A stretch of DNA of 64,000 nucleotides from positions 31,806-95,805 of the forward strand of contig NZ_CADFEN010000017.1 in the NCBI RefSeq assembly GCF_902833145.1, read 5' to 3'. Both the position numbers and the translations under genes were made by a program. Of the stretch, positions 11,894-35,973 are shown in pieces. Numbering within the stretch: the stretch's first letter is position 1; every line of letters starts with the position of its first letter. Origin of the DNA: Burkholderia sp. BCC0506 (GTDB lineage: Bacteria > Pseudomonadota > Gammaproteobacteria > Burkholderiales > Burkholderiaceae). Below the pieces are notes generated by a model, which was not told where the DNA came from, searched no databases, and saw nothing but the letters and a program-made list of their open reading frames with translations.

Positions 11894-12630
11894 GGCGTAC
11901 CGTCGACGGCGGTCACGGCCGACGAGAACACGTAGCCCTCGTTGCGCAGCGTCTTGATGTAGCGCGGTTCGCGCGCGCCGTCGCGCAAGCGCTGGCGCAG
12001 CCGGCTCACCAGCAGGTCGATCGAGCGGTCGAACGGATCGGACTGACGCCCTTGCGTGAGGTTGAGCAACTGGTCGCGCGTCAGCACGCGCTGCGGGTTG
12101 TCGAGGAACACGCGCAGCAGCCGGTATTCGGCGCCGCTCAGCGCGACCAGCGTGCCGTCCGCGTCGAGCAGGTGGCGCCCGGTCGTGTCGAGCTGCCATT
12201 CGCCGAACGCGAGCAGCGCGGCCGTTTCCGTCACCTGCATGCCGGGCGGCAGCATGCGCGCGCGGCGCAGCACCGAGCGGATCCGCGCGAGCAGCTCGCG
12301 CACCGCGAACGGCTTGGCCAGGTAGTCGTCGGCGCCCATCTCGAGACCGATGATGCGGTCGGTTTCCTCGCCGCGTGCGGTCAGCATCAGCACCGGTACC
12401 GTGCGGAACTTGCCGGCACGCAGGTCGCGGCACAGCGTCAGGCCGTCCTCGCCGGGCAGCATCAGGTCGAGCACGATCAGGTCGGGCGCGCCGTCGTCCA
12501 GCACGTTGCGCATCTCGCGGCCGTTCGCGGCCAGCGACACGCGCATGCCGTTCTTCTCCAGGTAGTCCGCGATCAGTTCGCGGATCGCGCGATCGTCGTC
12601 GACGATCAGCACGTGGTCGATCTTGTCCAT
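11890..12630 (-). CDS. OmpR-family response regulator
   Basis: A 246-residue regulator with a receiver domain (acidic DDD at 11-13, phospho-acceptor Asp55 in LDLMLPG, Thr84, Lys106 in AKPF) and a C-terminal winged helix of the OmpR/PhoB type (ALSGAEYRLLRVFLDNP, then SIDLLVSRLRQRL and the wing IKTLRNEGYVFS). It is cotranscribed with the histidine kinase through a four-base ATGA overlap. ATG 12630 gives the usual family N-terminus; an open extension to 12771 is unlikely to be translated. Target genes are unknown; the divergent thioredoxin-like gene, whose start is about 230 bases away, is a candidate. Confidence 0.93.
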   Translation of the reverse strand: MDKIDHVLIVDDDRAIRELIADYLEKNGMRVSLAANGREMRNVLDDGAPDLIVLDLMLPGEDGLTLCRDLRAGKFRTVPVLMLTARGEETDRIIGLEMGADDYLAKPFAVRELLARIRSVLRRARMLPPGMQVTETAALLAFGEWQLDTTGRHLLDADGTLVALSGAEYRLLRVFLDNPQRVLTRDQLLNLTQGRQSDPFDRSIDLLVSRLRQRLRDGAREPRYIKTLRNEGYVFSSAVTAVDGTP

Positions 12631-12863
12631 GAGTCGTTGCCGGTATCGGTGTCGGGGTTCGTGCGGGGCGATGTCCGCCTTTATACCGCACGGCGGGCAC
12701 GCGTTTGTATCCCAATGTATCCCGCTGCCGTGGCGACACACAACATTGCACACGCGCGGCCGGCCGGACACATCGCAGATACGTCGGCGCCGCCTAATGG
12801 GGCCTGTCGAAACCCGCCGGCCGCCGCCCTCGCGCCGCGGCCCGCAAAGATCAGGAGAACGCC

Positions 12864-13445
12864 ATGCTGCCCCGACTCAAGACCGCCGCCCTCGTCATCG
12901 CCCTCGCCGCCACGGCCGGGCTCGCCGCCTTCGCCGGCACCCGCGACGACACGGCCGTGCAGGCATCGCCGGCCGGCATGGCCGCGCCCGGCTTCACCGG
13001 CATCGAGCGCTGGCACAACAGCGCGCCGCTGACGCTCGACCAGTTGCGCGGCAAGGTCGTGCTCGTCGATTTCTGGACGTACTCGTGCATCAACTGCATT
13101 CATACGATTCCGTACGTGAACGACTGGTACCGGAAGTATCGCGACCAGGGGCTCGTCGTGGTCGGCGTGCACACGCCGGAATATCCGTTCGAACGCGACG
13201 CGAAGAACGTCGCCGATGCGATCAAGCGCTTCGACATCCGGTATCCGGTCGCGCAGGACAACCGCTACGACACCTGGCGCGCGTACGGCAACCAGTACTG
13301 GCCCGCGCTGTACCTGATCGATGCGAACGGCAAGATCGTCTATACGCGTTATGGCGAAGGCGGGTACGACAAGACGGAGGCCGCGATTCGGGCAGCGCTT
13401 GCGCAGGCGGAGGAAGGCATGAAGGGTGCGGCGCGCACGCAGTGA
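12864..13445 (+). CDS. Exported thioredoxin-like protein (TlpA/DipZ C-terminal type)
   Basis: A 193-residue periplasmic redox protein: signal peptide or anchor (MLPRLKTAALVIALAATAGLAA) followed by a thioredoxin fold with the active site WTYSCINCIHTIPYV. The CxxC with the SCINC surroundings is characteristic of the redoxin domain at the end of DipZ and related TlpA-like proteins. A TlpA-type insert containing VVVGVHTPEY and the cis-Pro region YWPALYLID are present. It would reduce or isomerise disulfides in exported proteins. A good ribosome binding site (AGGAG) precedes the ATG. It is divergent from the two-component system. Confidence 0.86.
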   Translation: MLPRLKTAALVIALAATAGLAAFAGTRDDTAVQASPAGMAAPGFTGIERWHNSAPLTLDQLRGKVVLVDFWTYSCINCIHTIPYVNDWYRKYRDQGLVVVGVHTPEYPFERDAKNVADAIKRFDIRYPVAQDNRYDTWRAYGNQYWPALYLIDANGKIVYTRYGEGGYDKTEAAIRAALAQAEEGMKGAARTQ

Positions 13446-13498
13446 CCCGAACGGGGCGCGGGCGCGAGATTCGCTCGCGCGCCGCGGCCCTCATGCGC

Positions 13499-14137
13499 TC
13501 AGGTGCGCTTCGCGTCGGCCTCCGCCAGCATCGCCTCGCCGATCGCGAGATTGCCGTGCGCGACCAGCGCCTCGCCCGCGCCGCGAATGTCGGCCTCGGG
13601 CTTGTTCTGCCCGAGCTTGCGCTTGCCGATGAGCTGCGTGATCCCGATCTGCAGCCCGACGATCGATTGCAGCATCGCGTCCATGTAGTCCGGCGGCGCG
13701 TCGCCCATCTTCCACGGCACGGGTTGCGACGCTTCGTGCGTGCGCGTCAGCCGCGCGACCACGCCGCGCACGAACTTCTCGTCGTCGCGCACCGTGATGC
13801 GGCCGTGCGCATGCACGACCCGGTAGTTCCACGTCGGCACCGCCCGGTGCGTCGCCTGCTTGCTCGGATACCAGGTCGGCGAGATGTACGCGTCGCCCGC
13901 GCGGAAGATCACGAGCACCTCGTCGCCGTCCGCGACGTCCTGCCAGACCGGATTCGCGCGCGCGACGTGAGCATGCAGTTCGCCGAGCCCGCCGTCGTCG
14001 CGTATCAGCTCGAACGGCAGGTGGATCGCATCGAGCCCGCTCTTGCCGTGCGTGATCAGGCTGCCGAACGGATGCTGCACGATCAGCTCGCGCAGCGCGT
14101 CGGGGTTGGGTTCGTTGTAATCGGCGGGGATGTACAT
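13499..14137 (-). CDS. PaiB-like FMN-binding protein
   Basis: A 212-residue member of the 'FMN-binding negative transcriptional regulator' (PaiB) family, a split-barrel flavin fold. Typical features are the start MYIPADYNEPNPDALRELI, HPFGSLITHG, HVARANPVW and PTWNYRVVHAHG. B. subtilis PaiB is linked to repression of sporulation and protease genes, but most relatives have no known role and may simply be flavin- or heme-binding oxidoreductases. The start at 14137 matches the family N-terminus. The gene is divergent from a MocR-type regulator and the shared region carries a palindrome, so it is the likely target of that regulator. Confidence 0.85.
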   Translation of the reverse strand: MYIPADYNEPNPDALRELIVQHPFGSLITHGKSGLDAIHLPFELIRDDGGLGELHAHVARANPVWQDVADGDEVLVIFRAGDAYISPTWYPSKQATHRAVPTWNYRVVHAHGRITVRDDEKFVRGVVARLTRTHEASQPVPWKMGDAPPDYMDAMLQSIVGLQIGITQLIGKRKLGQNKPEADIRGAGEALVAHGNLAIGEAMLAEADAKRT

Positions 14138-14203
14138 GTCGGCTCCACGGACGGACGGGGTGGGAATCGGGCGCGGGTGGCCCGTCATGCGTCGATTGTG
14201 GTC

Positions 14204-14235
14204 TCAAACTGGTTTATTCTGTAGAGCCGGTTTGA
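14204..14235. promoter_or_regulatory. Inverted repeat between paiB-like and mocR-like genes
   Basis: TCAAACTGG at 14204-14212 and CCGGTTTGA at 14227-14235 form an inverted repeat with one mismatch, fourteen bases apart. It lies within the divergent promoter region and ends 23 bases before the regulator start. MocR-type regulators commonly bind repeated sites in the intergenic region of their divergent partner, so this is a candidate operator. Confidence 0.55.
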
Positions 14236-14258
14236 AACAATTTCAGCAGACCAGAATC

Positions 14259-15767
14259 ATGGCAAGAACGGCCCGGATCGTCGAAATCCCGTCGCTCGGC
14301 GCGCTCGACCGCGCGGCCGGCGACCTGAGCCGGCAACTCGCGCAGGCATTGCGCGACGCGGTGCGCCGCGGCGACGTCCGCCCCGGCGACACGCTGCCTT
14401 CCACGCGGCTGCTGGCGGCGTCGCTGCAGGTGGCGCGCGGCACCGTCGTCGATGCGTATGCGCAGCTCATCGCGGAAGGCTTTCTCGAATCGCGCGGCGG
14501 TGCGGGTACGCGGGTCGCGCACGCACTCGCGGAACCGCCACCCGTCGGCGACCCCGAACCAACCACCCGCCATCAACGCCCGGTACGCGACGCCCTGCCC
14601 GAACCGGCCGCCGCCTTCGCGCGGCTTGCCACCGAATTCAGCCCGCTGCCGGCGATGCCGTTCGCGATCTCGGTGCCGCTCGGCCTCACCGCGCCCGACG
14701 ACATCTGGCGCCGGCTCGGCAATCGCCTGCGCGCGCGCGGCCCCGGCGCACCGTCCGGCTATGCCGACCCGCAAGGCGCGCTGCCGCTGCGCGAAGCGAT
14801 CGCCGATTACGTGCGCCGGTCTCGCTCGGTGCGCTGCGATGCCGGCCAGGTCGTGATCACGAGCGGCACGCAGCAGGGGCTGCATCTCGCGAGCCAGGTG
14901 CTGCTCGGTGAAAACGACCGCGCGTGGGTCGAGAATCCGGCCTATCGCGGCATCACCGCGCTGCTCGAAAGCACCGGGCGGCGCGACGCGATGGTGCGCG
15001 TGCCGGTCGACGCCGACGGCCTCGACGTCGACGCCGGCATTCGCGTCGCGCCCGATGCGCGCGCCGCGTTCGTCACGCCGTCGCATCAGTACCCGCTCGG
15101 CATGCCGCTCAGCATGGCGCGGCGCAATGCGCTGCTGGCATGGGCCCGCACGCATCGCGCATGGATCGTCGAAGACGACTACGACAGCGAATTGCGTTAC
15201 GAAGGCTATCCGTTCCCGTCGCTGCAGGGCCTCGCGCCCGATCGCGTGATCTATCTCGGCACCTTCAGCAAGATCCTGTTTCCGTCGCTGCGACTGGGCT
15301 ACGTGATCGCGCCCGACGATCTCGTGCCCGCGTTCTGCGGCGCGCGCGTGCTGATGGATCGCCACGCGCCGACCGCCGACCAGCACGTGCTCGCCGCGTT
15401 CATCGCCGAAGGCCATCTCGACCGCCACATCCGCCGCGTGCGCGGCGTCTATGCGGAACAGCGCGCGCTGCTGATCGACACGCTCGGCGCGCGGCTGCCG
15501 CGCGAGCGCGCGTGGGTGCAGCCGGGCGACCAGGGGATGCACGTCGTGCTGTGGCTCGCGGCAGGCATCGACGATCTCGACGTGGTCGCGCGCGCGGCCC
15601 AGGCCGGCGTCGCGGTGCGCGCGGTGTCGCCGATGTTCGCGCCCGGCACGGCCCGGCCGGGGCTCGTGCTCGGCTTCGGCGGATTCGGCCGCGCGCAGAT
15701 GGAAGCGGCCGCGCAGCGGCTCGCGGACGTGGTTTCGTCGGTGGAATCGCGGGCCCGCGCGCGGTAA
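14259..15767 (+). CDS. MocR/PdxR-type regulator (GntR winged helix + aminotransferase fold)
   Basis: A 502-residue chimeric regulator. The N-terminal GntR-type winged helix (about 18-90: DTLPSTRLLAASLQVARGTV, IAEGFLESRGGAGTRV) is joined by a linker to a class I aminotransferase domain. The PLP-binding lysine is Lys338 in TFSKILFPSLRLGY, and other family marks are VITSGTQQGL, TPSHQYPLG and EDDYDSELRY. Family members sense PLP or an amino-compound adduct and control a divergent gene; here the divergent gene is paiB-like, and a palindrome lies between them. The ATG at 14259 is chosen by homology; the frame extends upstream to 14130 through the operator. Confidence 0.9.
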   Translation: MARTARIVEIPSLGALDRAAGDLSRQLAQALRDAVRRGDVRPGDTLPSTRLLAASLQVARGTVVDAYAQLIAEGFLESRGGAGTRVAHALAEPPPVGDPEPTTRHQRPVRDALPEPAAAFARLATEFSPLPAMPFAISVPLGLTAPDDIWRRLGNRLRARGPGAPSGYADPQGALPLREAIADYVRRSRSVRCDAGQVVITSGTQQGLHLASQVLLGENDRAWVENPAYRGITALLESTGRRDAMVRVPVDADGLDVDAGIRVAPDARAAFVTPSHQYPLGMPLSMARRNALLAWARTHRAWIVEDDYDSELRYEGYPFPSLQGLAPDRVIYLGTFSKILFPSLRLGYVIAPDDLVPAFCGARVLMDRHAPTADQHVLAAFIAEGHLDRHIRRVRGVYAEQRALLIDTLGARLPRERAWVQPGDQGMHVVLWLAAGIDDLDVVARAAQAGVAVRAVSPMFAPGTARPGLVLGFGGFGRAQMEAAAQRLADVVSSVESRARAR

Positions 15768-15891
15768 AAGGTTGTCGGCGGGCAACAAACGTAATCGTCT
15801 GTAAATCCTGCAAGCAAACGGCCGTTTCGGCCATCGGCACCGGGGTTCCGTTTGCTAGGATCGCGCGTCTTCCCTCCGCGCTCCTGCCGCC

Positions 15892-18123
15892 TTGAATCGC
15901 TTCGTGCCGTTTCTCCGACACGCGTGGCTCCGTTGCCGCGCCCGGGTCGCGCCGCTCGCCGCCGCGAGCCGCGCACGCCTTCGCGCGCTGGGTGCCGGCG
16001 CGCTGCATCGACTGCGCCATCCCACCCGGCGCGGCGTCGCGCTGACGCTCGCCGCGATCCCGGTGCTGGGCCTGCTGGTCCTGCTCGCGTTCGTGCCGTT
16101 CACGCCGAGCATCGGCGACATCCGCAAGGCGCGCATCGACCGCCCGGCGCGCGTGCTGTCGGCCGACGGCCGGCTGATCGCCGAATTCCGGCCCGTGAAC
16201 CGCGAATGGGTGCCGCTCAAGCAGATCTCGCCGCACATGGTCGACGCGCTGATCGCGACCGAGGATCACCGCTTCTACGCGCATCACGGCATCGACTGGC
16301 GCCGCACGCTCGCCGCCGGCCTGCATACGTTCTCCGGCGACCGCCAGGGCGGCTCGACGATCACGCAGCAGCTCGCGCGCAACCTGTATCCCGACGAAGT
16401 CGGCCGCGCGCCGACGCTCACGCGCAAGGTGAAGGAGCTGATCACCGCGTTCAAGATCGAAGCTGTGTACAGCAAGGACGAGATTCTCGAAACCTACCTG
16501 AATACCGTGCCGTTCCTGTACAACGCGTACGGCGTCGAAATGGCCGCGCGCACCTACTTCGGCAAGTCGGCGGACCAGCTCGACCTCGCGGAAAGCGCGA
16601 CGCTCGTCGGTATGTTGAAGGGCAACAGCTACTACAACCCGGTGCTGAATCCGGAACGCGCGGTCCAGCGGCGCAACATCGTGCTCGGCCGCATGGCGCA
16701 GACGGGCATGCTGTCGCCGCAACAGCTCGCGAAACTGCAACGCCAGCCGCTGCGCGTCGACTTCGAACCGCAGACCGCGCAGCCGGGCCTCGCGCCGCAT
16801 TTCGCGGTGCAACTGCGCAAGTGGCTGATCGCGTGGGCCGACCGCAACAACTACGATCTCTACTCGGACGGGCTCGTCGTACGCACGACGCTCGATGCGC
16901 GGTTGCAGGAGATGGCCACGCAGGCGTTGACGCGGCAGACCGAACGGCTGCAGGCGATCGCCGACAGCGCATGGCGCGGGCCGGCCGGCTGCGGGCTGCG
17001 CAACGACCTGTTCCGCGGCTTCATCCGGCAGACGCCCGAGTATCGCCAGGCGCGCGACGCCGGGCTCGCCGACGTGGTCGCGGTCAAGCAGCTCGGCGCG
17101 AACCGCGAATTCGTGCGGGTGCTGTGCGAGCGCAAGACGCAGGTGCAGGCCGGCTTCGTCGCGATCGATCCGCGCAACGGCGCGATCCGCGCGTGGGTCG
17201 GCAGCCCCGACTTCGGCAGCGAGCCGTTCGATCACGTGGTACAGGCGCGGCGCCAGCCGGGCTCGACGTTCAAGCCGTTCGTCTATGGCGCCGCGTTCGC
17301 GGACGGCATGCGGCCGGGCGACACGTTCGTCGACCGCCCCGTCGCGATCCCGGTGGACGGCCGCGCCGTGTGGCGGCCGACCGATGCGGAACCGCCGACC
17401 GGCGAACCGATGACGCTGCGCGACGGGCTGGCGCTGTCGCGCAATCGCATCACCGCGCAGGTCATGCAGCATGAAGGCGCCGCGAAGGTTGCGCAGCTCG
17501 CCCGCGCGATGGGCGTGCGCGACAGTCCGCTCGACGCGGTGCCGTCGCTCGCGCTCGGCACGAGCCCCGTCACGCTGAAGGAAATGGTGTCCGCGTACGG
17601 CACGATCGCGAACCGCGGCGTGTACGTGGCGCCGCAGATGATCACGCGTATCGAGGATCGCGACGGCAAGGTGCTCGCCGCGTTCGGCAGCGCGCCGCCC
17701 GAGCGTGCGTTGCCGGTGGCCGCCGCGCAGACGCTCGTCGACGCGATGCGCGGCGTCGTCGATTACGGAACCGGCGCGGACATCCGCTCGCGCTACGGGA
17801 TTCGCATCGACGTCGCGGGCAAGACCGGCACGACGCAGGACAACACGGACGGCTGGTTCATCCTGATGCATCCGCAACTGGTGGCCGGCGCGTGGGTCGG
17901 CTTCGACGACGGCAGCGTGACGCTGCGCAGCGACTACTGGGGCGCGGGCGCGCACAGCGCGCTGCCGATCGTCGGCTCGTTTTACGACGCGGCGCTGCGC
18001 GCGCGAGCGATCGATCCGCACGTGCAGTTCTCGCCTGACTTCCGGCCGCGCAGCGCGCCGGCGCCGAAGCGGCGCGCGCCGCAGCATTCAGGGCTGTTCG
18101 ACTGGCTCAGGTTGTTCCGCTGA
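15892..18123 (+). CDS. Class A penicillin-binding protein (PBP1A-like transglycosylase/transpeptidase)
   Basis: A 743-residue bifunctional peptidoglycan synthase. A basic cytoplasmic tail is followed by one membrane anchor (about 48-70), a GT51 glycosyltransferase domain with the catalytic Glu124 in ATEDHRFYAHHGID and GGSTITQQLARNL, and a transpeptidase domain with STFK (Ser458, Lys461), SRN (516-518) and KTG (644-646). All catalytic motifs are intact, so it should polymerise and cross-link glycan strands at the outer face of the inner membrane. The start is TTG at 15892; no nearby ATG gives the complete anchor. It converges with the adenosine deaminase gene. An accessory PBP rather than the main mrcA copy is possible. 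Confidence 0.92.
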   Translation: MNRFVPFLRHAWLRCRARVAPLAAASRARLRALGAGALHRLRHPTRRGVALTLAAIPVLGLLVLLAFVPFTPSIGDIRKARIDRPARVLSADGRLIAEFRPVNREWVPLKQISPHMVDALIATEDHRFYAHHGIDWRRTLAAGLHTFSGDRQGGSTITQQLARNLYPDEVGRAPTLTRKVKELITAFKIEAVYSKDEILETYLNTVPFLYNAYGVEMAARTYFGKSADQLDLAESATLVGMLKGNSYYNPVLNPERAVQRRNIVLGRMAQTGMLSPQQLAKLQRQPLRVDFEPQTAQPGLAPHFAVQLRKWLIAWADRNNYDLYSDGLVVRTTLDARLQEMATQALTRQTERLQAIADSAWRGPAGCGLRNDLFRGFIRQTPEYRQARDAGLADVVAVKQLGANREFVRVLCERKTQVQAGFVAIDPRNGAIRAWVGSPDFGSEPFDHVVQARRQPGSTFKPFVYGAAFADGMRPGDTFVDRPVAIPVDGRAVWRPTDAEPPTGEPMTLRDGLALSRNRITAQVMQHEGAAKVAQLARAMGVRDSPLDAVPSLALGTSPVTLKEMVSAYGTIANRGVYVAPQMITRIEDRDGKVLAAFGSAPPERALPVAAAQTLVDAMRGVVDYGTGADIRSRYGIRIDVAGKTGTTQDNTDGWFILMHPQLVAGAWVGFDDGSVTLRSDYWGAGAHSALPIVGSFYDAALRARAIDPHVQFSPDFRPRSAPAPKRRAPQHSGLFDWLRLFR

Positions 18124-27130: not shown

Positions 27131-27562
27131 CTTGGGCGCGTCTCCTGATCGTGTCGTGTGTTGTTGTCCGGCGACCGGCGAGCCGCCGTCGGGCGAATCG
27201 CTGCATTGTACCGGCACGCCCGTTCGATGCCTGTGCAGGGCAGCAGGTCGGCCGCATTGCGGGCGCCGAAGCCGTTCGATGCGCCCTTTTCCCGCCGGAT
27301 AATGTGTAAATTGCGTAACCGTGTGTCCGGTACGGAACGCGTGTCGGCGTGGCGCTCCGGCGCCATCGGCGCTGCGCAGAGGCCGCGCGGGCCGGCAATC
27401 ACGGGCCTGCCGCGCTGCTTCGCGCCGCCGGAATCGCCGCGAACGGCAAGACGCAATCGGTACAACCACGCGTTCCGCGCCCCGGTAACATGCTAGCGGG
27501 CCAACTACCGGCTTCCGGTGACCTTTCGGCAACCGGCATTGTCGGCAAATCGTAAGCATTCC
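27131..27562. other. Divergent intergenic region between MFS and MscS genes
   Basis: About 430 bases holding the promoters of both genes. The part near 27290-27320 (ATAATGTGTAAATTGCGTAACC) is the most A+T-rich and may contain a promoter. Open frames here are short and have no ribosome binding site. No repeat or RNA structure was recognised. Confidence 0.45.
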
Positions 27563-30007
27563 ATGTCCATACAACGACTCTCTCTCTACGCCCGCCGGAT
27601 TGCGCTGATCGCGCTGCTGCAATTCGCGGCGATCGCGACCGCGTCGGCGTTTCCGGCAGCCGCTTCCACTCCCGTCGCGAGCGGGGTCGGCGCCACCGCG
27701 CCGGCCATCTCGCTGCCCGACGCCATCGCACAGCTCAAGCAGATGCAGGCCGAGCTGGACCGCATCAAGCAGCAGACCTCGACCGCGTCCAACAGCAAGG
27801 AACTGGATGCGCTCGACGACTCGACGCAGGAACTGAGCGCCGATGTCGCGAAACTGCAGAGCGATCTCACGCCGCAACGCGCGCAGGTGCAGGCACAGCT
27901 CGACGTGCTCGGCCCGCCGCCTGCCGCGGGTGCCGCGCCGGAAACGCCGGCCGTCGCGAAACAGCGGGCCGCGCTGGACGCGCGCAAGGCGCAGATCGAC
28001 GCCGCGCTGAAGCAGGCCGCCGACCAGAAGACGAGCCTCACGAACCTGAGCGAGCAGTTCGCGAAGCTGCATCGCAGCCTGCTGAAGAACCAGCTCGCGT
28101 TCCGTTCGGGCAGCATCTTCAGCGCGCAGTTCTGGCTGCCGCTGTTCCACCTGTCGCCGGACGATCGCCAGCGGCTCCAGGATTTCGACGACGAGCTGCT
28201 CGACATGCTGCGCTCGTCGTGGGTGCCGGGGCAGCGGGCAATCACCGCCGCGCTGCTGATCGCCGCATTCGCCGCGTGGCTCGGCGGCCGCCGGCTCATC
28301 GAGCGCGGGCTCGCCTGGATCGCGCTGAACCGCCTGCCGCCCACCCGCTTGCGCCGCAGTGCGCTGGCGCTGTCGACCGCGCTGTCGACGCTTCTGGCGA
28401 CGGCCATTGCCGTGCAGATTCTCTACCTCGCCGTCGCGCGCCACTACGAGCTCACGCCGTCGCTGACCGACCTGTGGGACCAGTTCGCCAAGCTCGCCGC
28501 CACCTGCGCACTGATCGCCGGGCTCGGCCGCGCACTCCTCTGCACGAAACATCCGTCCTGGCGCCTGCCCGCGCTCGCCGATCCGGTCGCGCTCGCGATG
28601 AAGCCGTTCCCCAGCATCCTCGCGGCGCTGCTGCTGGTGTCCGGCACGCTCGAATCGATCAACCGGATCGTCGACACCAGCCTGTCGGTCACGCTGTTCG
28701 GTCGCGGCATCGTGTCGCTCGTCGTCGCGCTGACGGTCGGCGCGTCGTTGCTGCGCGCGAACCGCGCGCGCAGCGCCCTCGCGGCGGCCGGCGAGGCGCC
28801 CGAGCAGCGCTCGACGCTCGCCGGGCTGATCCATGCCGGCGTCACGCTCGCGATCGTCGCCTCGTTGATCGCACTCCTGATCGGTTACATCACGGTCGCG
28901 CGCTTCATCACGTACGAGCTCGTGTGGTTCGAGATCGTGCTGTGCGCAACCTACATCCTGATCCAGTTGACGCGCGACGCGAGCGAAAGCCTGTTCTCGT
29001 CGAGCCTGTCGACGGGCCAGCAGATCAAGCACCTGTTCGCGCTCGAAGATCGCCACCTCGACCAGGCGCGCACGGTCCTGTCCGGCTTCGGCACGAGCCT
29101 GCTGATGCTGATCGCGGCGATCGCGCTGCTGACGGGCGGCTTCGGCACGACGCCGGGCGACCTGCTCGACAGCGCGGTCGCGATGATCGGCAGCCAGCGG
29201 CTGCAGAGCCTGAACATCATGCCCGACCGGATCATGAACGCCGTGATCGGGTTCGCGATCGGCTTCTACCTGCTGCGTTCGCTGCGCCGCTGGCTCGACG
29301 CCGAGTTCATGCCCGCGCTCGGCATGGATACGGGCATGCGCGTGTCGCTGATCACGCTGTTCACCAACGTCGGCTACGTGCTGCTCGTGCTGATGACGCT
29401 CGGGCTGCTCGGCGTCAGGTGGAACAATCTCGCGTGGATCGTCAGCGCGTTGTCGGTCGGTATCGGCTTCGGCCTGCAGGAAATCGTGAAGAATTTCGTG
29501 TCGGGGCTGATCCTGCTGACCGAGCGGCCGGTGAAGGTGGGCGACATGGTCAGCATCGCGGGCGTCGAAGGCGACATCCGCCGCATCAACGTGCGCGCAA
29601 CCGAGATCCAGCTCAGCGACCGCTCGACCGTGATCGTGCCGAATTCGCAGCTGATCTCGCAGAACGTGCGCAACGTGACGATGGGCAACAGCACGCAGGG
29701 CGTCGCGACGCTGGTGCTGACATTCCCGCTGAACACCGATCCCGAGCAGGTGCGCGACCTGCTGCTCGATGCGTATCGCGAGCACCCGGCGATTCTCGAG
29801 AAACCGGCGCCGTCGGTGACGTTCAGCCAGCTCGCGCCGGACGGAATCACGCTGAGCGTGACGGGTTACGTGTCGAGCCCGCGGATCGCGAGTGCGACGA
29901 AGAGCGACCTGCTGTTCGAGATCCTCAAGCAATTGCGCGCGGCGGGGATCACGCTGTCGAGCCCGCAGATGCTGGTGGTGCAGAACATGCCGACGGAAGA
30001 GAAGTAA
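27563..30007 (+). CDS. Large mechanosensitive channel (MscS/MscK-like with DUF3772-type periplasmic domain)
   Basis: An 814-residue member of the large MscS family. A signal-like N-terminus (MSIQRLSLYARRIALIALLQ) is followed by a long periplasmic region rich in heptads (about 50-190: LKQMQAELDRIKQQT, LSADVAKLQSDL), several additional TM helices, and the conserved MscS core. The pore-lining helix and beta domain are clear: LSVGIGFGLQEIVKNFVSG, LLTERPVKVGDMVSI, STVIVPNSQLISQ. It opens under membrane tension to release solutes after osmotic downshift. The length and extra TM helices fit the YbiO/MscM-like group. Its 3' end abuts the A+T-rich island, separated by a hairpin terminator. Confidence 0.9.
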   Translation: MSIQRLSLYARRIALIALLQFAAIATASAFPAAASTPVASGVGATAPAISLPDAIAQLKQMQAELDRIKQQTSTASNSKELDALDDSTQELSADVAKLQSDLTPQRAQVQAQLDVLGPPPAAGAAPETPAVAKQRAALDARKAQIDAALKQAADQKTSLTNLSEQFAKLHRSLLKNQLAFRSGSIFSAQFWLPLFHLSPDDRQRLQDFDDELLDMLRSSWVPGQRAITAALLIAAFAAWLGGRRLIERGLAWIALNRLPPTRLRRSALALSTALSTLLATAIAVQILYLAVARHYELTPSLTDLWDQFAKLAATCALIAGLGRALLCTKHPSWRLPALADPVALAMKPFPSILAALLLVSGTLESINRIVDTSLSVTLFGRGIVSLVVALTVGASLLRANRARSALAAAGEAPEQRSTLAGLIHAGVTLAIVASLIALLIGYITVARFITYELVWFEIVLCATYILIQLTRDASESLFSSSLSTGQQIKHLFALEDRHLDQARTVLSGFGTSLLMLIAAIALLTGGFGTTPGDLLDSAVAMIGSQRLQSLNIMPDRIMNAVIGFAIGFYLLRSLRRWLDAEFMPALGMDTGMRVSLITLFTNVGYVLLVLMTLGLLGVRWNNLAWIVSALSVGIGFGLQEIVKNFVSGLILLTERPVKVGDMVSIAGVEGDIRRINVRATEIQLSDRSTVIVPNSQLISQNVRNVTMGNSTQGVATLVLTFPLNTDPEQVRDLLLDAYREHPAILEKPAPSVTFSQLAPDGITLSVTGYVSSPRIASATKSDLLFEILKQLRAAGITLSSPQMLVVQNMPTEEK

Positions 30008-30012
30008 AACGA

Positions 30013-30053
30013 AGACGGCCGATCGCGTACCGCAGCTATCGCGACGGCCGTCT
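30013..30053. terminator. Hairpin terminator between mscS-like gene and the island
   Basis: AGACGGCCG at 30013-30021 pairs with CGGCCGTCT at 30045-30053; further bases (CGCG) extend the stem. Read on the minus strand the stem is followed by TCGTTTT, so it should end the island transcript right after the micro-ORF at 30060; it may also act on the plus strand transcript of the channel gene. Confidence 0.6.
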
Positions 30054-30059
30054 CCGGTA

Positions 30060-30191
30060 CTACCGAAATGCCCATCGCCCGATGATGCCGGCGCTGGCAA
30101 ACAGTCGAAGCCGCGCCGCCTCCCATTCGGCAAGCGTTCGCACCCGTTCCTGGCGGGCATCGGCCCATTCATCCAGCTCATACCAAGCCAA
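30060..30191 (-). CDS. Micro-ORF, 43 residues, (M)AWYELDEW... type
   Basis: A 43-residue ORF starting with TTG at 30191, three bases after the stop of the upstream membrane protein gene. The Shine-Dalgarno GAGGAG lies in that gene's last codons. The peptide begins (M)AWYELDEWADARQERVR, is rich in Arg, Glu, Ala and Trp, and could form an amphipathic helix with a hydrophobic end (FASAGIIGRWAF). It shares its start, AWxELD, and the identical three-base spacing with the micro-ORF at 31099. The conserved layout is the main argument that it is translated. I do not recognise a family. A TTG start makes it easy for gene finders to miss. Confidence 0.55.
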   Translation of the reverse strand: MAWYELDEWADARQERVRTLAEWEAARLRLFASAGIIGRWAFR

Positions 30192-30194
30192 GTT

Positions 30195-30860
30195 CTACTC
30201 CTCTGTGCACGTAAATTTGTTGCGCAACGCCATGAAAATCACGACTGAGCCAACGGCAATTGCCGTAATGTCAGCGCCACCGGCAAACAATGGCCCGATA
30301 AATCCCAACCACAGGCGTGATCGACTTATTGCCACGAAATTCCACTCGAAATAATAACCATAAATGAAAAGATAAAATAACCCCAATCCCGCAAATACAA
30401 AAACAACAGTCACCGAGTAAATTTTTCTTACAAACGAAAATTTCGAATACTCATTTACAACCCGATCTCGATACCAGCAACAAATACGAATCGCCACCCA
30501 AAATCTAATTGGCGCCGCGATCAACATCAGCGCGAAATAAATCGCTGTGACATCAGGAAATTCAGATTCCTTTATCGCATTAAAAATAAGCGGAAATATT
30601 TCCCCAATGCTTTCCACTACAATTCGCGAATATGGCCAACGCGTTAATGCATCGTCCGGCGCGAACCATGCGATCAGCGCGCCAGCAAGATGCAGCACCA
30701 AGAGCGCTGGATTCATGCGATAAATCTTGATCATCAAACCAAAGATGTTCCTGGGTTCCGCGTCGTTACCTTCTACTGCCGACACCTCCTCATAGCGCGG
30801 CCCCTCCCTTTTTCGCGGCTTGGAACAAGCACGCCATCTCAATTCACTCCATTTACCCAC
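30195..30860 (-). CDS. Island membrane protein D (4-TM paralogue)
   Basis: A 221-residue protein of unknown function. A basic, hydrophilic N-terminus of about 40 residues is followed by hydrophobic segments near 51-67, 103-122, 147-168 and 183-212. Blocks shared with the three paralogues to the right are HLAGALIAWFAPDDALTRWP, FPDVTAIYF, and ISRSRLWLGFIGPLFAGG. Closest to the gene at 32000 (both have the NIFGLMIxIYRM block). Start is GTG at 30860; the MG start is shared with the 32000 gene. The coding sequence is A+T-rich compared with flanking genes. Upstream lies a copy of the duplicated leader with its palindrome; downstream the micro-ORF is coupled. An immunity or peptide-handling role is only a guess. 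Confidence 0.75.
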   Translation of the reverse strand: MGKWSELRWRACSKPRKREGPRYEEVSAVEGNDAEPRNIFGLMIKIYRMNPALLVLHLAGALIAWFAPDDALTRWPYSRIVVESIGEIFPLIFNAIKESEFPDVTAIYFALMLIAAPIRFWVAIRICCWYRDRVVNEYSKFSFVRKIYSVTVVFVFAGLGLFYLFIYGYYFEWNFVAISRSRLWLGFIGPLFAGGADITAIAVGSVVIFMALRNKFTCTEE

Positions 30861-30870
30861 AGGATTCTCT

Positions 30871-31024
30871 TATTTTCATACACATACGATACATTAAAAA
30901 TAATTTGAAAGTTCCGTACTTGTACGATCATTTATTCCGGGCACGCCATCAGCGAATCCACGCAAGCGAAAACGTCCCCGTGCCTTCACCCAATCATCAC
31001 TGCGCCAGAAAACAAAATAGCCGG
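30871..31024. repeat. Duplicated leader, copy 1
   Basis: About 154 bases that match 33571-33723 closely by eye, starting CTTATTTTCATACACATACGA and ending CCAGAAAACAAAATAGCCGG, with scattered substitutions and small indels. This copy lies directly upstream of island gene D. It keeps the palindrome CGTACTTGTACG but its terminator hairpin is degenerate. Confidence 0.8.
30915..30926. promoter_or_regulatory. Palindrome CGTACTTGTACG, leader copy 1
   Basis: CGTAC and GTACG are perfect inverted arms around TT. The same twelve bases occur at the equivalent place in leader copy 2 (33618-33629), although the surroundings have diverged, which suggests selection for an operator. It is about 55 bases upstream of the gene D start. 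Confidence 0.5.
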
Positions 31025-31098
31025 CCCACGGACAGCTTTTCGCGAACTCGGCCCGATATATGGCATCATTCATAGGTTTCGGCTGTATTCGCGTTTGC

Positions 31099-31194
31099 CT
31101 ACTTCATGTATTCGGCGGCTTTTTCTAGCGCGGCTTTAATACCTTCACCCGCCGCTCCAATTGCATCCCAACTATCGAGTTCATTCCACGCCAT
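31099..31194 (-). CDS. Micro-ORF, 31 residues, MAWNELDSW... type
   Basis: A 31-residue ORF with ATG at 31194, three bases after the stop of the upstream membrane protein gene. AGAGG, six bases before the start, overlaps the end of that gene, so translation is coupled. The peptide MAWNELDSWDAIGAAGEGIK continues with an Ala/Glu/Lys segment ending YMK; it could form an amphipathic helix and has a Gly-rich middle. It shares AWxELD and the three-base spacing with the micro-ORF at 30060. No family recognised; peptide toxin, pheromone, leader or small membrane-protein partner are all possible. Confidence 0.6.
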   Translation of the reverse strand: MAWNELDSWDAIGAAGEGIKAALEKAAEYMK

Positions 31195-31197
31195 TTC

Positions 31198-31752
31198 TTA
31201 CCTCTTTATTTTAAAAAACACCCACGAAAAAAAGATGAATATCCACGCAATCCCCGCCGCCACGCCAAATCCCTCTGCGCCACCCGCAAATATAGGGCCA
31301 ATCAATCCAAGCAAAAATCTAGACTCCGAGATCGGAAGAACATTTATTTCGTAATACGGCCGACCAAATAACACAGCCGCCACCCCAAAAACAAAGAAGA
31401 ACACCACCCCAACTGACAAAATCACCCTCTTAAAAAATGATTTTTTTATTATCGCCACTGTGTGGCCCCTGTCCACATAGAAAGCGCGAGCCGAATCAAA
31501 TATCCTCACAGGCAAGAGCGCATACATAATAGAAAAATACAGCCCCATTACACCCGGAAAAGCAGATTTTTCCGCTGCCTCGTTCACAACCGGAAATACG
31601 CGACCGGCCCACGATACAAAATCCGCAAGAATCTTGTATCGCACCAGAACATCAGCGGGAGCAAACCATGCGATCAGCGCACCAAAGATATGCAAAGACA
31701 ATATTCGCGGACAGTAGCGGTAATACCTCAACAAACCTTTCAATTCATCCAT
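31198..31752 (-). CDS. Island membrane protein C (4-TM paralogue, shorter N-terminus)
   Basis: A 184-residue protein from ATG 31752 (AGGTG nine bases upstream); GTG at 31764 would add four residues. It lacks the hydrophilic N-terminal extension of the other three paralogues but keeps the shared blocks: HIFGALIAWFAPADVLVRY, FPGVMGLYFSIM, PVRIF, and ISESRFLLGLIGPIFAGG. Hydrophobic segments lie near 19-33, 68-82, 108-130 and 146-180, the last ending in a lysine-rich tail. It is the most divergent of the four. The micro-ORF at 31099 follows after three bases. Upstream, between this gene and gene B, is a region that may hold the remains of another gene. Function unknown. Confidence 0.75.
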   Translation of the reverse strand: MDELKGLLRYYRYCPRILSLHIFGALIAWFAPADVLVRYKILADFVSWAGRVFPVVNEAAEKSAFPGVMGLYFSIMYALLPVRIFDSARAFYVDRGHTVAIIKKSFFKRVILSVGVVFFFVFGVAAVLFGRPYYEINVLPISESRFLLGLIGPIFAGGAEGFGVAAGIAWIFIFFSWVFFKIKR

Positions 31753-31999
31753 GGATTGCTTCACCTAGCATTCTTACCTGCGGGAATAGACCCTCGTTCG
31801 ATAATCCGCCTTCATTACAACACCTCAAAATAGCGCCATCCACCATGACCACCAAAACCATCACGCGAATTGAGCCAGAGGCGTTGCATCGGAATCGATC
31901 GTATATAGGACAAGAAAATTTCAAGTAGACAGTGACAACAACTTTCTGTAGCGCGACTTTCCCGCATCCTCTCTGAACGAACATATCCATTTGTCGATT
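31753..31999 (-). pseudogene. Possible gene remnant between island genes B and C
   Basis: About 250 bases with no intact gene. One frame (reading through 31815-32003) ends in RDGFGGHGGWRYFEVL and then a stop, a Gly/aromatic-rich C-terminus that looks like the end of a real, larger protein rather than chance sequence. The stop overlaps an ATG (TAATG) that begins a 13-codon frame. If the end belonged to a toxin, the following gene C would be in the immunity position. This is a weak reading; only the last 20 codons look protein-like. Confidence 0.3.
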
Positions 32000-32683
32000 T
32001 CACAACCGGCCGGCCCCTTTACCAGTAAAGGTGCGGCACAAAGCAATGAAAATTGCAACCACGCCAACTGCGATAGCGACAACATCAGCCCCACCCGCAA
32101 ATAACGGCCCGATCAAACCCAGCCACATGCGCGATCGGCTTATTGCAACAAAGTTCCACTCATAGAAATACCCACCAACCAAAATAGAATGAAATCCCAT
32201 GCACATAAACATCAAGACAACGACAATCGAGTAAATTTTCTTCGTGACGGAAAATTTCGAATATCCATCCTCGACCCGAGATCGATACGAATAACAAAAA
32301 CGAATTGCCACCGAAAGTCTCATCGGAATCGCAACCAACATCAGAAAAAAATACAGCGCCGTCACGTCGGGAAATTTGGATTTCTTTACCGCCTCTGGTA
32401 GCAAAGGAAATATCTCTCCAACGTTAGCTACCGCTATCTTCATAAATGGCCAACGAGTCAACGCATCATCCGGCGCAAACCAAGCAATCACCACACCAGA
32501 CAGATGCAAAGCCAAGAGTGCGGGACTCATTCGATAAATCCTGATCATCAGGCCAAAGATGTTCTTGGGCTCAGTGTCGCCCCCCGCCTCCTCCCTCCTC
32601 GGTCCATAGCCCTCTCCCTCCTCTTGTTCCTTGGGACAAGCACGCCACCTTGCCCCCTGACGTTCTTTCATATAAATGCCCAA
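32000..32683 (-). CDS. Island membrane protein B (4-TM paralogue)
   Basis: A 227-residue protein, the closest relative of gene D: both have a basic, Glu-rich N-terminus with WRAC, then EPKNIFGLMIRIYRMSPALL, HLSGVVIAWFAPDDALTRWP, FPDVTALYFFLML and ISRSRMWLGLIGPLFAGG. The DNA of the two genes is also visibly similar, so one arose from the other by duplication. I use TTG at 32683 because it gives the MG start seen in gene D; ATG at 32671 is the alternative. It begins 15 bases after the stop of gene A, so A and B are cotranscribed. Four membrane segments are expected. No family recognised. Confidence 0.75.
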   Translation of the reverse strand: MGIYMKERQGARWRACPKEQEEGEGYGPRREEAGGDTEPKNIFGLMIRIYRMSPALLALHLSGVVIAWFAPDDALTRWPFMKIAVANVGEIFPLLPEAVKKSKFPDVTALYFFLMLVAIPMRLSVAIRFCYSYRSRVEDGYSKFSVTKKIYSIVVVLMFMCMGFHSILVGGYFYEWNFVAISRSRMWLGLIGPLFAGGADVVAIAVGVVAIFIALCRTFTGKGAGRL

Positions 32684-32698
32684 TTAAATCTCGTAAAT

Positions 32699-33451
32699 TT
32701 ATCGACCTCGCTCCACCTGCGCCTCGCACTTACGACCCAACTCACACACCGAAAGAGCTCGTTCCGCCGGAATCAAATCACGACCCGCAACACCTTTTTT
32801 CAACAAAAACATGCAACACAACAAAGCAACAATCGCAACACTCGCCACAACAAAGCAAATAACCAAATACCCACCAGCAAATAATGGTCCTATCATTCCG
32901 AGCCAGAACCTCGATTTTCCGACTGACATGAAATTCCAGTCAAAATATTGGCCGTGGAAAATCAGAAGGAACACACTCCCAGACAAAAACAAAATCGCAA
33001 CCAGAAATGCACAAATCTTCCGTTTCCACGAGTAGCCGAAGTACCCAGCTACTATCTCCCCCCTCTCCACATAGCAAAGACGGAAAGCTTCAAATATTCT
33101 GATCGGTATCGCGGCCAACAACAGTGAGAAATAGAGCGCTGTGACATCCGGAAACAGAGATTTCTCGATTGCCTTAGGTAGCAATGGAAATACTTCGCCG
33201 ATGGCGGTCACCACTGGCTTCAGCATTGGCCAGCGCTTCAGCGAGTCATTAGGTGCAAACCATGCGATCAGCGCACCCGCGAGATGCAAAGCCAAGATTG
33301 CAGGGCTTCGACGATAAAACTCGATCAGGGAGAAAAGGACATTTTGATGCCATGTGCCTTCCCCCTTCGCAATCAATAGTGGCCGACAATGTGCTCCCTC
33401 TTCGCTCCCATTAGCACATGCATGACCTGTCGATTCCCGCAACCATTTCAT
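32699..33451 (-). CDS. Island membrane protein A (4-TM paralogue, longest)
   Basis: A 250-residue protein, first gene of the island. It shares with the others HLAGALIAWFAPNDSLKRWP, EVFPLLPKAIEKSLFPDVTA, LYFSLLLAAIPIRIF and KSRFWLGMIGPLFAGG. It differs in a Cys/His-containing N-terminus (HACANGSEEGAHCRPLL) and a hydrophilic C-terminal tail of about 30 residues (ERALSVCELGRKCEAQV) after the last membrane segment. Start ATG 33451 has AGG about eight bases upstream. Leader copy 2 with the palindrome CGTACTTGTACG lies upstream and should hold the promoter of the A-B(-C-peptide) unit. Function unknown. Confidence 0.75.
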   Translation of the reverse strand: MKWLRESTGHACANGSEEGAHCRPLLIAKGEGTWHQNVLFSLIEFYRRSPAILALHLAGALIAWFAPNDSLKRWPMLKPVVTAIGEVFPLLPKAIEKSLFPDVTALYFSLLLAAIPIRIFEAFRLCYVERGEIVAGYFGYSWKRKICAFLVAILFLSGSVFLLIFHGQYFDWNFMSVGKSRFWLGMIGPLFAGGYLVICFVVASVAIVALLCCMFLLKKGVAGRDLIPAERALSVCELGRKCEAQVERGR

Positions 33452-33570
33452 ACGTATACCTAATCAATGTGTCGAAACGTTACCAAATCGAACCCACCAC
33501 TCACACTAGCCACCAGCGATATGCAACGCCATGAAGATATAGAAATAATTGAAAGAAAACAAGAAATTGG

Positions 33571-33723
33571 CTTATTTTCATACACATACGAAACATCAAA
33601 AAATGATTCCAAATCCCCGTACTTGTACGATTACTTGTCCTGACGCACCATAAGCGAATCCACTCACGCGAAATATCCCACCCTCGCCCAATCAATCACC
33701 GCACCAGAAAACAAAAAAGCCGG
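33571..33723. repeat. Duplicated leader, copy 2
   Basis: Counterpart of 30871-31024, upstream of island gene A. It begins CTTATTTTCATACACATACGA and ends with the intact terminator stem of the neighbouring dehydrogenase gene. Since the terminator belongs naturally to that gene, this copy is probably the original and copy 1 the duplicate. Confidence 0.8.
33618..33629. promoter_or_regulatory. Palindrome CGTACTTGTACG, leader copy 2
   Basis: Same twelve-base sequence as at 30915-30926, about 167 bases upstream of the gene A start. Candidate operator of the island genes. Confidence 0.5.
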
Positions 33724-33740
33724 CACATGGCCGGCTTTTC
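33712..33740 (-). terminator. Rho-independent terminator of the aldehyde dehydrogenase gene
   Basis: On the minus strand GCCGGC-CATGT-GCCGGC is followed by TTTTTTG; on the plus strand the same stem is followed by TTTT, so it may work both ways. It begins about 75 bases past the dehydrogenase stop. Confidence 0.85.
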
Positions 33741-33816
33741 CGCTTGAAACGATAACAACTCGACATCAGTCGCCCGATGAAATCAGCGCAAACAACCCGC
33801 CAATCCCACCCCGACA

Positions 33817-35328
33817 TCAAACATCGAACTTCACCCCCTGCGCCAGCGGCAGTTGCCGGCTGTAGTTGATCGTATTCGTCGCACGGCGCATATACGCCTT
33901 CCACGCATCCGAACCCGACTCGCGCCCGCCGCCCGTTTCCTTCTCGCCGCCGAACGCGCCGCCGATTTCCGCGCCGCTCGTGCCGATGTTCACGTTGACG
34001 ATCCCGCAATCGCTGCCGGCCGCCGACATGAACTGCTCGGCCTCGCGCATGTCGTTCGTGAAGATCGCCGACGACAGGCCTTGCGGCACCGCGTTGTGCA
34101 CCTCGATCGCATCGTCGAAGTTGTCGTAGACCATCACGTACAGGATCGGCGCGAACGTCTCGCGCTCGACCACCGCCGATTGCTTGGGCATCCGCACGAT
34201 GGCCGGACGCACGTAGTACGCATCCGGGTGACCGACATCGACGCGCTCGCCGCCCTTCACTTCGCCGCCCTGCTCGCGCGCATCGGCCAGCGCCTTCTGC
34301 ATCGCGTCGAACGACGCACGATCGACCAGCGGGCCGACCAGCGTGCCTTCTTCGAGCGGGTTGCCGACCTTCACCGACGCGTAGGCCTTCTCGATGCGCG
34401 GCAGCAGTTGCTCGACGAGGCTGCGATGCACGATCAGGCGGCGCAGCGTCGTGCAGCGCTGGCCGGCCGTGCCGACCGCCGCGAACGTGACCGCGCGCAC
34501 GACGAGGTCGAGATCCGCGCTCGGCGCGACGATCATCCCGTTGTTGCCGCCGAGTTCGAGGATGCCGCGTGCCAAGCGCTGGCTCAGCACCTTCGCGACT
34601 TCCTGGCCCATCCGCACGCTGCCCGTCGCGCTGACGACCGGCACCTTCTTCGACGCCGTCAGCACCTCGCCGACATCGCGCATGCCGAGCACCAGCTGGC
34701 TCAGCTCCGCCGGCGCGACGCCCGGATGCGTCTTGTCGAACTCGCGCAGCGCCTTCTGGAGCAGCACGTGGCACGCGATCGCGGTGAGCGGCGTCTTCTC
34801 GGACGGCTTCCACACGACCGAATCGCCGCACACGAACGCGAGCGCCGCATTCCACGCCCACACCGCGACCGGGAAGTTGAACGCCGAAATCACGCCGCAC
34901 ACGCCGATCGGGTGCCACGTTTCCATCATCCGGTGGCCCGGGCGCTCGGACGCGATCGTGAGGCCGTAAAGCTGGCGCGACAGACCGACCGCGAAATCGC
35001 AGATGTCGATCATTTCCTGCACTTCACCGAGGCCTTCCGACGTGATCTTGCCGGCTTCGAGCGTGACGAGGCGGCCGAGCTCGGCCTTGTGCTCGCGCAG
35101 CACGTTGCCGAACACGCGCACGAGTTCGCCGCGCACCGGCGCCGGCACCGTGCGCCACTTGAGGAATGCGTCGTGCGCGGCGTCGATCTTGCGCTCGGCG
35201 TCGGCGGGCGTGTCGACGGCCAGCGTCGCGAGCGTCGCGCCGTCGAGCGGCGAACGCGCGGTCAGCGCGTTGCCTTTCCACTGGGCGAGATCGATGTCGA
35301 GCGCGGCAAGAATGTCGTTGAATTGCAT
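33817..35328 (-). CDS. amaB: L-piperidine-6-carboxylate dehydrogenase-like aldehyde dehydrogenase (AmaB, ALDH7)
   Basis: A 503-residue NAD(P)+-dependent aldehyde dehydrogenase of the ALDH7 (antiquitin) group. The Rossmann part has FNFPVAVWAWN and WKPSEKTPLTA, the active-site base is in LELGGNNGMIV, and the catalytic Cys in GTAGQRCTTLRRL, which is the exact ALDH7 form. It oxidises piperideine-6-carboxylate (2-aminoadipate semialdehyde) to 2-aminoadipate in lysine degradation. The start at 35328 has a strong Shine-Dalgarno (AGAGGAAG). The divergent neighbours are a lysine-type permease and an AmaA-like oxidase, which together fit pipecolate/lysine catabolism. Confidence 0.9.
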   Translation of the reverse strand: MQFNDILAALDIDLAQWKGNALTARSPLDGATLATLAVDTPADAERKIDAAHDAFLKWRTVPAPVRGELVRVFGNVLREHKAELGRLVTLEAGKITSEGLGEVQEMIDICDFAVGLSRQLYGLTIASERPGHRMMETWHPIGVCGVISAFNFPVAVWAWNAALAFVCGDSVVWKPSEKTPLTAIACHVLLQKALREFDKTHPGVAPAELSQLVLGMRDVGEVLTASKKVPVVSATGSVRMGQEVAKVLSQRLARGILELGGNNGMIVAPSADLDLVVRAVTFAAVGTAGQRCTTLRRLIVHRSLVEQLLPRIEKAYASVKVGNPLEEGTLVGPLVDRASFDAMQKALADAREQGGEVKGGERVDVGHPDAYYVRPAIVRMPKQSAVVERETFAPILYVMVYDNFDDAIEVHNAVPQGLSSAIFTNDMREAEQFMSAAGSDCGIVNVNIGTSGAEIGGAFGGEKETGGGRESGSDAWKAYMRRATNTINYSRQLPLAQGVKFDV

Positions 35329-35973
35329 CACTTCCTCTTCAGGGACAGATTGATCGGTGCGGCGGCAGCGCCGCCCGCGTGATTCGATTGGAGCGCGTTC
35401 GAGCGCCTTGTGCAAGCGGATGCGCCCCGCGGCGGGCCCCGGTGCGCCATCCGGCGCATCGCGCTGCGCCGCCGCCGGACACCCCGGCCGGACGGCGCGC
35501 CCCAGCCTCGCGAGGCACGATCCATGAAACACATTGTCGATGGCCACAAGTCGGGCCGCTATTGATATTAACTCACGACTTCATTCCCAAAACGCAACAA
35601 CTCGACAACCGGTCCGACGCGTTTTCGTGCCGATTCAGGACTTTTCCAAAGCCCGAACGCGGGTGCCCGGACGCGTCCCGGCATGACGCAAGTTGATGAC
35701 CATCCCGCATCACCCTGTTCGGAAATATCGTTTGCCGCTCGCGCACCGGGCACACACAATCGGTGCGACGTCGAGGTGCAGCGCACCCGGCGCGCCGCCG
35801 GCCGTCACTACGGCAGCCGGACGACCGACGAACGCGACACGCACCACGGCCCGGCTCAGCGGGTCCCTCAGCGAGCCCGATCGGCACCGCACCACCGCTG
35901 CCCGGCCGCGGCCGGCAACGCGTCGCGCTTCGTCACCGAAAAACAATCCCGGAGACAGCGCCCAGCACCCGCC
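35329..35973. other. Long divergent intergenic region between amaB-like and lysine permease genes
   Basis: About 645 bases holding both promoters. The part near 35565-35600 is A+T-rich (TATTGATATTAACTCACGAC) and is the most likely promoter region of the dehydrogenase gene. The permease frame stays open back to 35683 but the predicted residues are Arg/His-rich and not transporter-like. No operator was recognised with confidence. Confidence 0.45.

Follow-up and report, generated by a model that had tools for sequence, protein, structure and literature searches.

Micro-ORFs as probable toxin-gene remnants in a putative immunity-only island related to RTX toxin loci of Burkholderia

RTX proteins have mostly been studied as host-directed toxins, and the usual polymorphic toxins carry their toxin domain at the C terminus. 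In the type VI secretion system (T6SS) of Vibrio cholerae, new effector-immunity modules displace old effectors and the old immunity genes persist as arrays (PMC5361080). Orphan immunity genes of the CDI and Rhs systems can be expressed (PMC3150448), and an orphan immunity protein has been demonstrated to protect against a T6SS Rhs effector (PMC10539506). The available text of a polymorphic-toxin survey mentions type I secretion solely as the way in which large RTX toxins are exported (PMC3482391), and the accessible part of a review on Burkholderia secretion treats type I secretion as host-directed (PMC13391677). Among the titles and abstract openings covered by a literature search, there was no RTX toxin system with exchanged N-terminal domains and immunity genes.

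The 64-kb stretch of Burkholderia sp. BCC0506 analysed here (the window) points, as judged from its sequence and that of related loci, to an exchangeable RTX toxin/immunity system with predicted immunity proteins, and to an immunity-only island in which two micro-ORFs are remnants. We consider it likely that the locus in the window is what is left of a locus for a type I-secreted, presumably antibacterial toxin, with only the putative immunity genes remaining.

Four paralogous membrane protein genes (M1-M4) and two stubs (A and B) fill positions 30060-33451 on the reverse strand. They lie between two core genes, one at 33817..35547 (reverse strand), presumably aldehyde dehydrogenase-like to judge from its sequence, and one at 27518..30007 (forward strand), presumably, on the same basis, mechanosensitive-channel-like. 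In steps of 500 bases, the G+C content is 46-53% at 30000-33999 versus 65-70% on either side. The initial annotation had recognized the paralogy of the membrane protein genes but had counted only two of them. The four orphan genes, all on the reverse strand, are M1 (32699..33451, 250 aa), M2 (32000..32683, 227 aa), M3 (31198..31764, 188 aa), and M4 (30195..30860, 221 aa). Four to six overlapping hydrophobic windows were found in each protein. M2, M3, and M4 are each closer to a different toxin-linked protein of another genome (78% identity to that of G012, 65% to that of G037, and 85% to that of G045, respectively) than M1-M4 are to one another (34-60%). M1 is without a toxin-linked relative, and its closest relatives (G059b and B. 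stagnalis b, 66%) are orphans, too.

M1-M4 did not match Pfam, and for the membrane proteins and the toxin domain described below (AWxELD domain) no trusted-score match was obtained in Pfam, NCBIfam, PADLOC, PHROGs, or PDB sequences. NCBIfam was run on two membrane proteins, M4 and its G037 relative, neither of which matched. By these searches (Pfam for all four proteins, NCBIfam for the two), they do not fall into a curated bacteriocin or colicin immunity family. A phage origin of M4 was considered and dropped, there being no match among 50,697 phage records. Plasmid spread was dropped as well; the one match among 72,556 records was the 3.17-Mb replicon of Burkholderia stagnalis.

The two micro-ORFs were found where they had been annotated: ORF A at 31194-31099 (ATG, 31 aa) and ORF B at 30191-30060 (TTG, 43 aa). 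Both begin three bases past the stop of a membrane protein gene (31764-31198 and 30860-30195, respectively), and the purine-rich, Shine-Dalgarno-like stretch of each overlaps the 3' end of that gene. The DNA pattern for W-x-E-L-D occurs at two sites in the 64-kb window, which are these two ORFs only; the mean in shuffled sequences was 0.19, with two sites reached in 2 of 100 shuffles. When the stub A peptide was compared by tblastn with 65 genomes from the same genus (limit E <= 10), 17 places were obtained, 11 of them with E <= 0.15. The other six (E 0.38-4.5) were counted as chance matches and left aside. All 11 places lie behind a gene, or a gene remnant, of the same membrane protein family, and the resemblance of the two ORFs is therefore attributed to homology. 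In their common origin, their tie to the membrane protein family, and the retained translation start, the initial annotation was right.

At four of the 11 places, the AWxELD start leads into something much larger. It continues as an open frame of 1,586 (G037), 1,533 (G012), and 1,533 (G045) residues, and in G055 it opens a frame of 279 residues which is broken further on. The remaining seven places are stubs. The lengths of their frames are unrelated: apart from stub A, they extend over 34, 35, 86, 88, and 101 residues, and a further one in G049, of 46 residues, holds a stop. Most likely, both micro-ORFs are what is left of the 5' end of a large gene for a secreted toxin.

Stub A (31099..31194, reverse strand) comprises toxin codons 1-31 and tracks G037 through codon 31, after which TAG stands for the CAG of G037; DNA similarity to G037 is lost near 31087. 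Further downstream, from 31039, the sequence is similar to the operon leader region. Stub B is composed of two parts. Its 5' part (30165..30191, reverse strand) represents toxin codons 1-9, with TTG in place of the ATG of G045, and its 3' part (30060..30164, reverse strand) consists of the final 34 codons and the stop of tolC, in frame with the toxin start. The tolC-derived tail shows 97% identity over 33 residues. When the window was compared by blastn with G037, G012, and G045, the match to the toxin locus ended at 30164 or before, and the tolC end matched from 30164; the match to G045 leaps from 7,202 to 16,727 at this point (~9.5 kb). Alignment at the level of bases places the junction at 30164/30165, with toxin codon 9 on one side and, in the same frame, the last 34 tolC codons on the other. 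ORF B is a toxin-tolC chimera, the scar of a ~9.5-kb deletion. Regarding the two ORFs as related peptides is correct for their shared start but not for the C-terminal 34 residues of ORF B, which belong to tolC.

A third, decayed toxin start is found behind M2 (31943..32016, reverse strand). The toxin start of G012 is recognizable there over ~25 codons (AGCEIDKW vs AGYELDKW), its ATG is lost, and the frame is shifted. A decayed micro-ORF beside an intact membrane protein gene, which according to the initial annotation would speak against functional peptides, is thus present, without start codon and out of frame. Together with stubs A and B, a toxin start is carried by three of the four membrane protein genes in the window, one of the starts being dead. 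Behind M1, no toxin start is recognizable although the G055 relative of M1 has a stub.

In related Burkholderia, the parent operon consists of a gene for an RTX protein of ~1,530 residues, followed by hlyB, hlyD, and tolC, and is thus a type I secretion operon with an RTX substrate. The genes behind the toxin code for HlyB (TIGR01846), HlyD (TIGR01843), and an outer membrane efflux protein. The latter, analysed in a shortened G037 frame, has a TolC-family score of 177 bits against a curated cut-off of 225 bits, and its Pfam OEP match is strong. With 16-18 RTX-repeat stretches per toxin (three scanned: G037, G045, and G059), an HCBP-related domain, HlyB, and HlyD, the relatives are like HlyA-type RTX toxins. 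Unlike these, they score below the NCBIfam RTX-haemolysin cut-off (301 bits for the whole toxin; cut-off 1000), and their N-terminal domains are swapped along with paired upstream genes.

The C-terminal part of the toxin (334 aa) is present with 86-100% identity in 10 of the 65 genomes, in eight frames of 1,533-1,586 residues and in two broken genes (G055 and G048); G025 and G053 have partial matches at 39-41%. The eight intact toxins form two classes: the AWxELD domain is found in three of them (class I), an unrelated N-terminal domain in the other five (class II). Between the classes, sequence identity is 10-30% in alignment columns 1-350, 64% in columns 351-400, and 73-99% in columns 401-1600. 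A conserved carrier with an exchanged toxin domain, as in polymorphic toxins, is hence found in the relatives (not in the window itself), with the variable domain being N-terminal rather than C-terminal. The G+C content is 45-50% in the M genes, 44-45% in the lipoprotein genes upstream of class II toxins, 48-55% in the N-terminal domains, and 60-61% in the C-terminal toxin parts, a contrast that fits with the upstream gene and the N-terminal domain moving together. The class I domain has a hydrophobic glycine-rich stretch (residues ~146-178). The class II domain carries HEIGHYI, and HExxH is present in 5/5; an assignment as peptidase was not adopted, as there was no Pfam peptidase match. A third N-terminal type is seen on the broken toxin of G048 (L050), which has the same carrier; the gene in front of it is again a different one, encoding 297 residues. 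In B. stagnalis, the toxin is disrupted, and a 450-residue ORF (L084 14455-15807) that looks transposase-like by eye lies inside its gene.

The toxin domain goes along with the gene upstream of it. Domain-length matches to the AWxELD domain were found in eight cases, and seven of these (G037, G012, G045, G055, G004, G025, and G154) are directly preceded by a gene of the membrane protein family; the exception is G010, the weakest of the eight (24% identity). A gene for a lipobox-bearing lipoprotein is directly upstream of all five intact class II toxins. By sequence, a partner gene beside the toxin domain, as expected for polymorphic toxins, is thus the rule in both classes. In G004 (an RHS-repeat protein) and G025, the AWxELD domain resides on a different carrier, and the membrane protein gene is still upstream. 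The distance from the stop of the membrane protein gene to the toxin start is 0-3 bases in G012, G037, G045, and G055. For six class I pairs, the identities of membrane protein/N-terminal domain are 35/46, 36/51, 34/47, 59/74, 75/85, and 60/71%, and the C-terminal toxin part stays at 91-94% in the same comparison (three pairs measured). The two identities are correlated (Spearman 0.89, p 0.02; the six pairs have members in common and so lack independence), as they are for class II (0.67, p 0.03; ten pairs, again not independent). By sequence, the upstream gene and the N-terminal domain are exchanged as a cassette.

In G154, which belongs to another genus, the membrane protein gene is followed by the gene for a 2,048-residue RTX-repeat protein (L136 4635-10781), whose RTX parts are separated by a subtilase and a P domain, and then by HlyB and HlyD; the C-terminal tail of this protein shows 59% identity over 39 residues to that of G045. 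In G285 (L137 6796-11367), two paralogous membrane proteins, one of them weakly similar to the M proteins, precede a distant RTX protein with a LysM domain. As the AWxELD domain is undetectable in the latter, G285 was left out of the pairing counts.

The flanking core genes are convergent on one contig in 52 of the 65 genomes. The gap between them is <=400 bases in 35 genomes, 785-3,816 bases in seven, and 9.7-23 kb in ten, and nine of the ten large gaps contain the toxin operon. Neither G053, the tenth large gap, nor the six intermediate gaps besides that of the window code for a protein of the toxin/immunity system at this site. Of the 52 cases, only the window has immunity genes but no toxin at this site. 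Eleven loci are occupied, namely the window, the nine gaps with toxin operon, and G048, where the flanks are on two contigs. Nine of them contain extra immunity genes or fragments in addition to the partner of the toxin, the exceptions being G012 and G034. The order in G045 (M3-like remnant, stub, M4-like gene, full toxin) equals that of the window before the deletion. G059 and B. stagnalis have a class II toxin alongside several class I orphans and stubs. Partial second copies of flanking core genes are found inside the arrays of G059 (L043 11299-11823) and G034 (L080, reverse strand, 4045-4481); these give the impression that entire loci were inserted next to older ones. In G007, the same intergenic site (L085 1257-3829) holds ORFs that are presumably transposase-like and reverse-transcriptase-like.

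The orphan state of M1-M4 extends to the genome as a whole. The C-terminal toxin part is absent from the window genome at the limit of 86-100% identity, and the entire C-terminal sequence at E <= 10 gives only short matches in other RTX-like frames; apart from these RTX-repeat matches, stub A is all that remains of a cognate effector. No match to the class II lipoprotein was found in this genome. The secretion operon is gone except for the tolC tail, the nearest HlyB relatives in the genome being 29-46% identical compared to 89-96% among the operons. Homologues paired with effectors in other genomes exist for M2, M3, and M4 (at the identities given above) but not for M1.

Stub pairs present in two genomes are confined to G059 and B. 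stagnalis. In these stubs, 12 of 18 changes are replacing, compared with a neutral share of 77% (p 0.21). Neighbouring orphan membrane protein genes of the same two genomes have 9/24 and 69/126 replacing changes (p 5e-5 and 1e-7). By these counts, the orphan membrane protein genes are constrained while the shared stubs fit neutrality, the direct contrast between the first orphan gene and the stubs not being significant (Fisher p 0.12). In the window, dN/dS against the toxin-linked counterparts is 0.33 for M4, 0.23 for M2, and 0.15 for M3. Stub A differs from its G037 counterpart by 3 replacing and 14 silent changes, which indicates constraint during much of that time, as part of the toxin or otherwise. 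A recent truncation would explain this, and a functional peptide would, too. Neutral rates of change, named initially as evidence against functional peptides, fit the stubs of G059 and B. stagnalis but not the comparison of stub A with G037.

The initial annotation had proposed that the micro-ORFs encode peptides which are made and act together with the membrane protein, as toxin, signal, or subunit. The retained start codon, ribosome site, and spacing as well as the few replacing changes in stub A are in line with this. Conserved spacing and conserved first residues do not prove, however, that the peptides are made for a purpose, as the full toxin gene in intact operons already has the same layout. 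ORF B is a toxin-TolC chimera, the stub frames elsewhere range from 34 to 101 residues and end at unrelated points, M2 is followed by a dead start, and changes in the stubs common to G059 and B. stagnalis are compatible with neutrality. Hydrophobicity windows revealed no hydrophobic segment in either peptide; neither ORF conforms to the short hydrophobic membrane peptides of type I toxin-antitoxin systems, which are conserved over their full length, and ends and lengths vary. We thus regard functional micropeptides as very improbable; the stubs may be translated as by-products. A "peptide toxin with immunity protein" was nevertheless near in spirit because the parent gene codes for a large toxin-like protein with a probable immunity partner; it is the peptide itself to which the term does not apply.

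The gene for HlyC precedes hlyA, and the membrane protein might likewise be an accessory of secretion or toxin maturation rather than an immunity protein. It is encoded directly before the toxin and, in RTX loci, always together with the secretion operon. Class II toxins, however, have the same carrier and exporter and an unrelated lipoprotein gene at this position, which means that the upstream gene goes with the N-terminal domain and not with secretion. The membrane protein gene also accompanies the domain on other proteins (the RHS-repeat protein of G004, and G025), and it is retained in several copies without any toxin. An accessory role is thus unlikely, though less so than functional micropeptides. 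For M1-M4 being local tandem duplicates with another, toxin-unrelated role, it may be argued that the genes are side by side and that a toxin is absent. This is hard to reconcile with M2, M3, and M4 resembling toxin-linked genes of other species more than they resemble one another, and with a toxin start behind three of the four genes, and we give it very little credence.

With an immunity-only remnant as the preferred reading, the membrane proteins would confer immunity to a toxin aimed at other bacteria, and the retained genes would guard against neighbours that still carry such toxins. RTX proteins are also able to act on eukaryotic cells, which counts against an antibacterial role. For the AWxELD domain, an attack on the inner membrane by a membrane-inserting toxin seems likeliest, given its multi-spanning membrane partner and the hydrophobic glycine-rich stretch in the N-terminal domain. 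The lipoprotein partner and HExxH suggest that the class II domain is a periplasmic enzyme. Whether these loci form an antibacterial RTX platform, with an exchangeable N-terminal warhead, compartment-fitted immunity, and turnover at one site that leaves immunity-only islands, we consider an evenly balanced question. The compartment fit (inner-membrane protein for the membrane-inserting domain, lipoprotein for the periplasmic HExxH domain) is part of that picture and shares its even odds.

The site between the core genes would serve as a niche for an RTX operon (immunity gene, toxin, HlyB, HlyD, TolC). An incoming cassette or operon would take over the exporter; the old toxin would be cut away and the old immunity gene kept because neighbours may still use the old toxin. 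As the immunity gene is upstream and the toxin starts within 0-3 bases, the first toxin codons would stay attached. The toxin start could additionally be kept because, with it, the mRNA for the immunity protein ends in a coupled start. A single deletion of ~9.5 kb, reaching from toxin codon 9 to the tail of tolC, would have removed the last toxin and the entire secretion operon from the window genome. Four immunity genes would remain, the weapon being lost and the protection kept. By analogy with the T6SS arrays and the orphan CDI/Rhs modules, after which it is modelled, this kind of displacement appears most likely (PMC5361080, PMC3150448).

As described for V. cholerae, the retained immunity genes resemble paired genes of other strains; differences from the T6SS arrays are that the effector here is a type I-secreted RTX protein, that the array is upstream of the toxin, and that the first effector codons are kept (PMC5361080). 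The locus shares with the orphan cdiA-CT/cdiI and rhs-CT/rhsI modules the swapping of a polymorphic toxin region with its immunity gene and the orphan arrays. In those modules, as reported, it is the C terminus that varies and orphan toxin fragments usually have no translation start, whereas here the domain is N-terminal and the start is kept (PMC3150448). By description, the Cdz system of Caulobacter is similar in that antibacterial proteins with glycine zippers are exported by type I secretion and that the immunity protein resides in the inner membrane; CdzC and CdzD have 84-86 aa and no RTX carrier, unlike the ~1,530-residue toxin (PMC5380434). Likewise by description, the CDI ionophore toxins have polymorphic membrane-active domains and highly variable cognate immunity proteins, but use two-partner secretion and a C-terminal domain, unlike the type I-secreted N-terminal system considered here (PMC11630599).

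A polymorphic RTX system with two compartment-matched types of immunity would extend the range of exchangeable interbacterial weapons to another secretion route. The window genome would represent a natural "shield without weapon" strain. There is also a trap for annotation. Because an N-terminal toxin domain is encoded behind its immunity gene, leftovers keep their start codons and resemble small genes. The short ORF that remains of a dead toxin has a good start site, its first residues are conserved, and it looks like a small protein.

An upstream element (CGTACAAGTACG ... TATGTGTATGAAAATAAG) is found twice in the window, before M1 (33618..33629, reverse strand) and before M4 (30915..30926, reverse strand). 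It may be a promoter or operator moving together with the individual modules. CGTACAAGTACG followed by TATGTGTATGAAAATAAG also occurs upstream of the arrays in G045 (L042 4641) and G055 (twice, L044 7369 and 8633).
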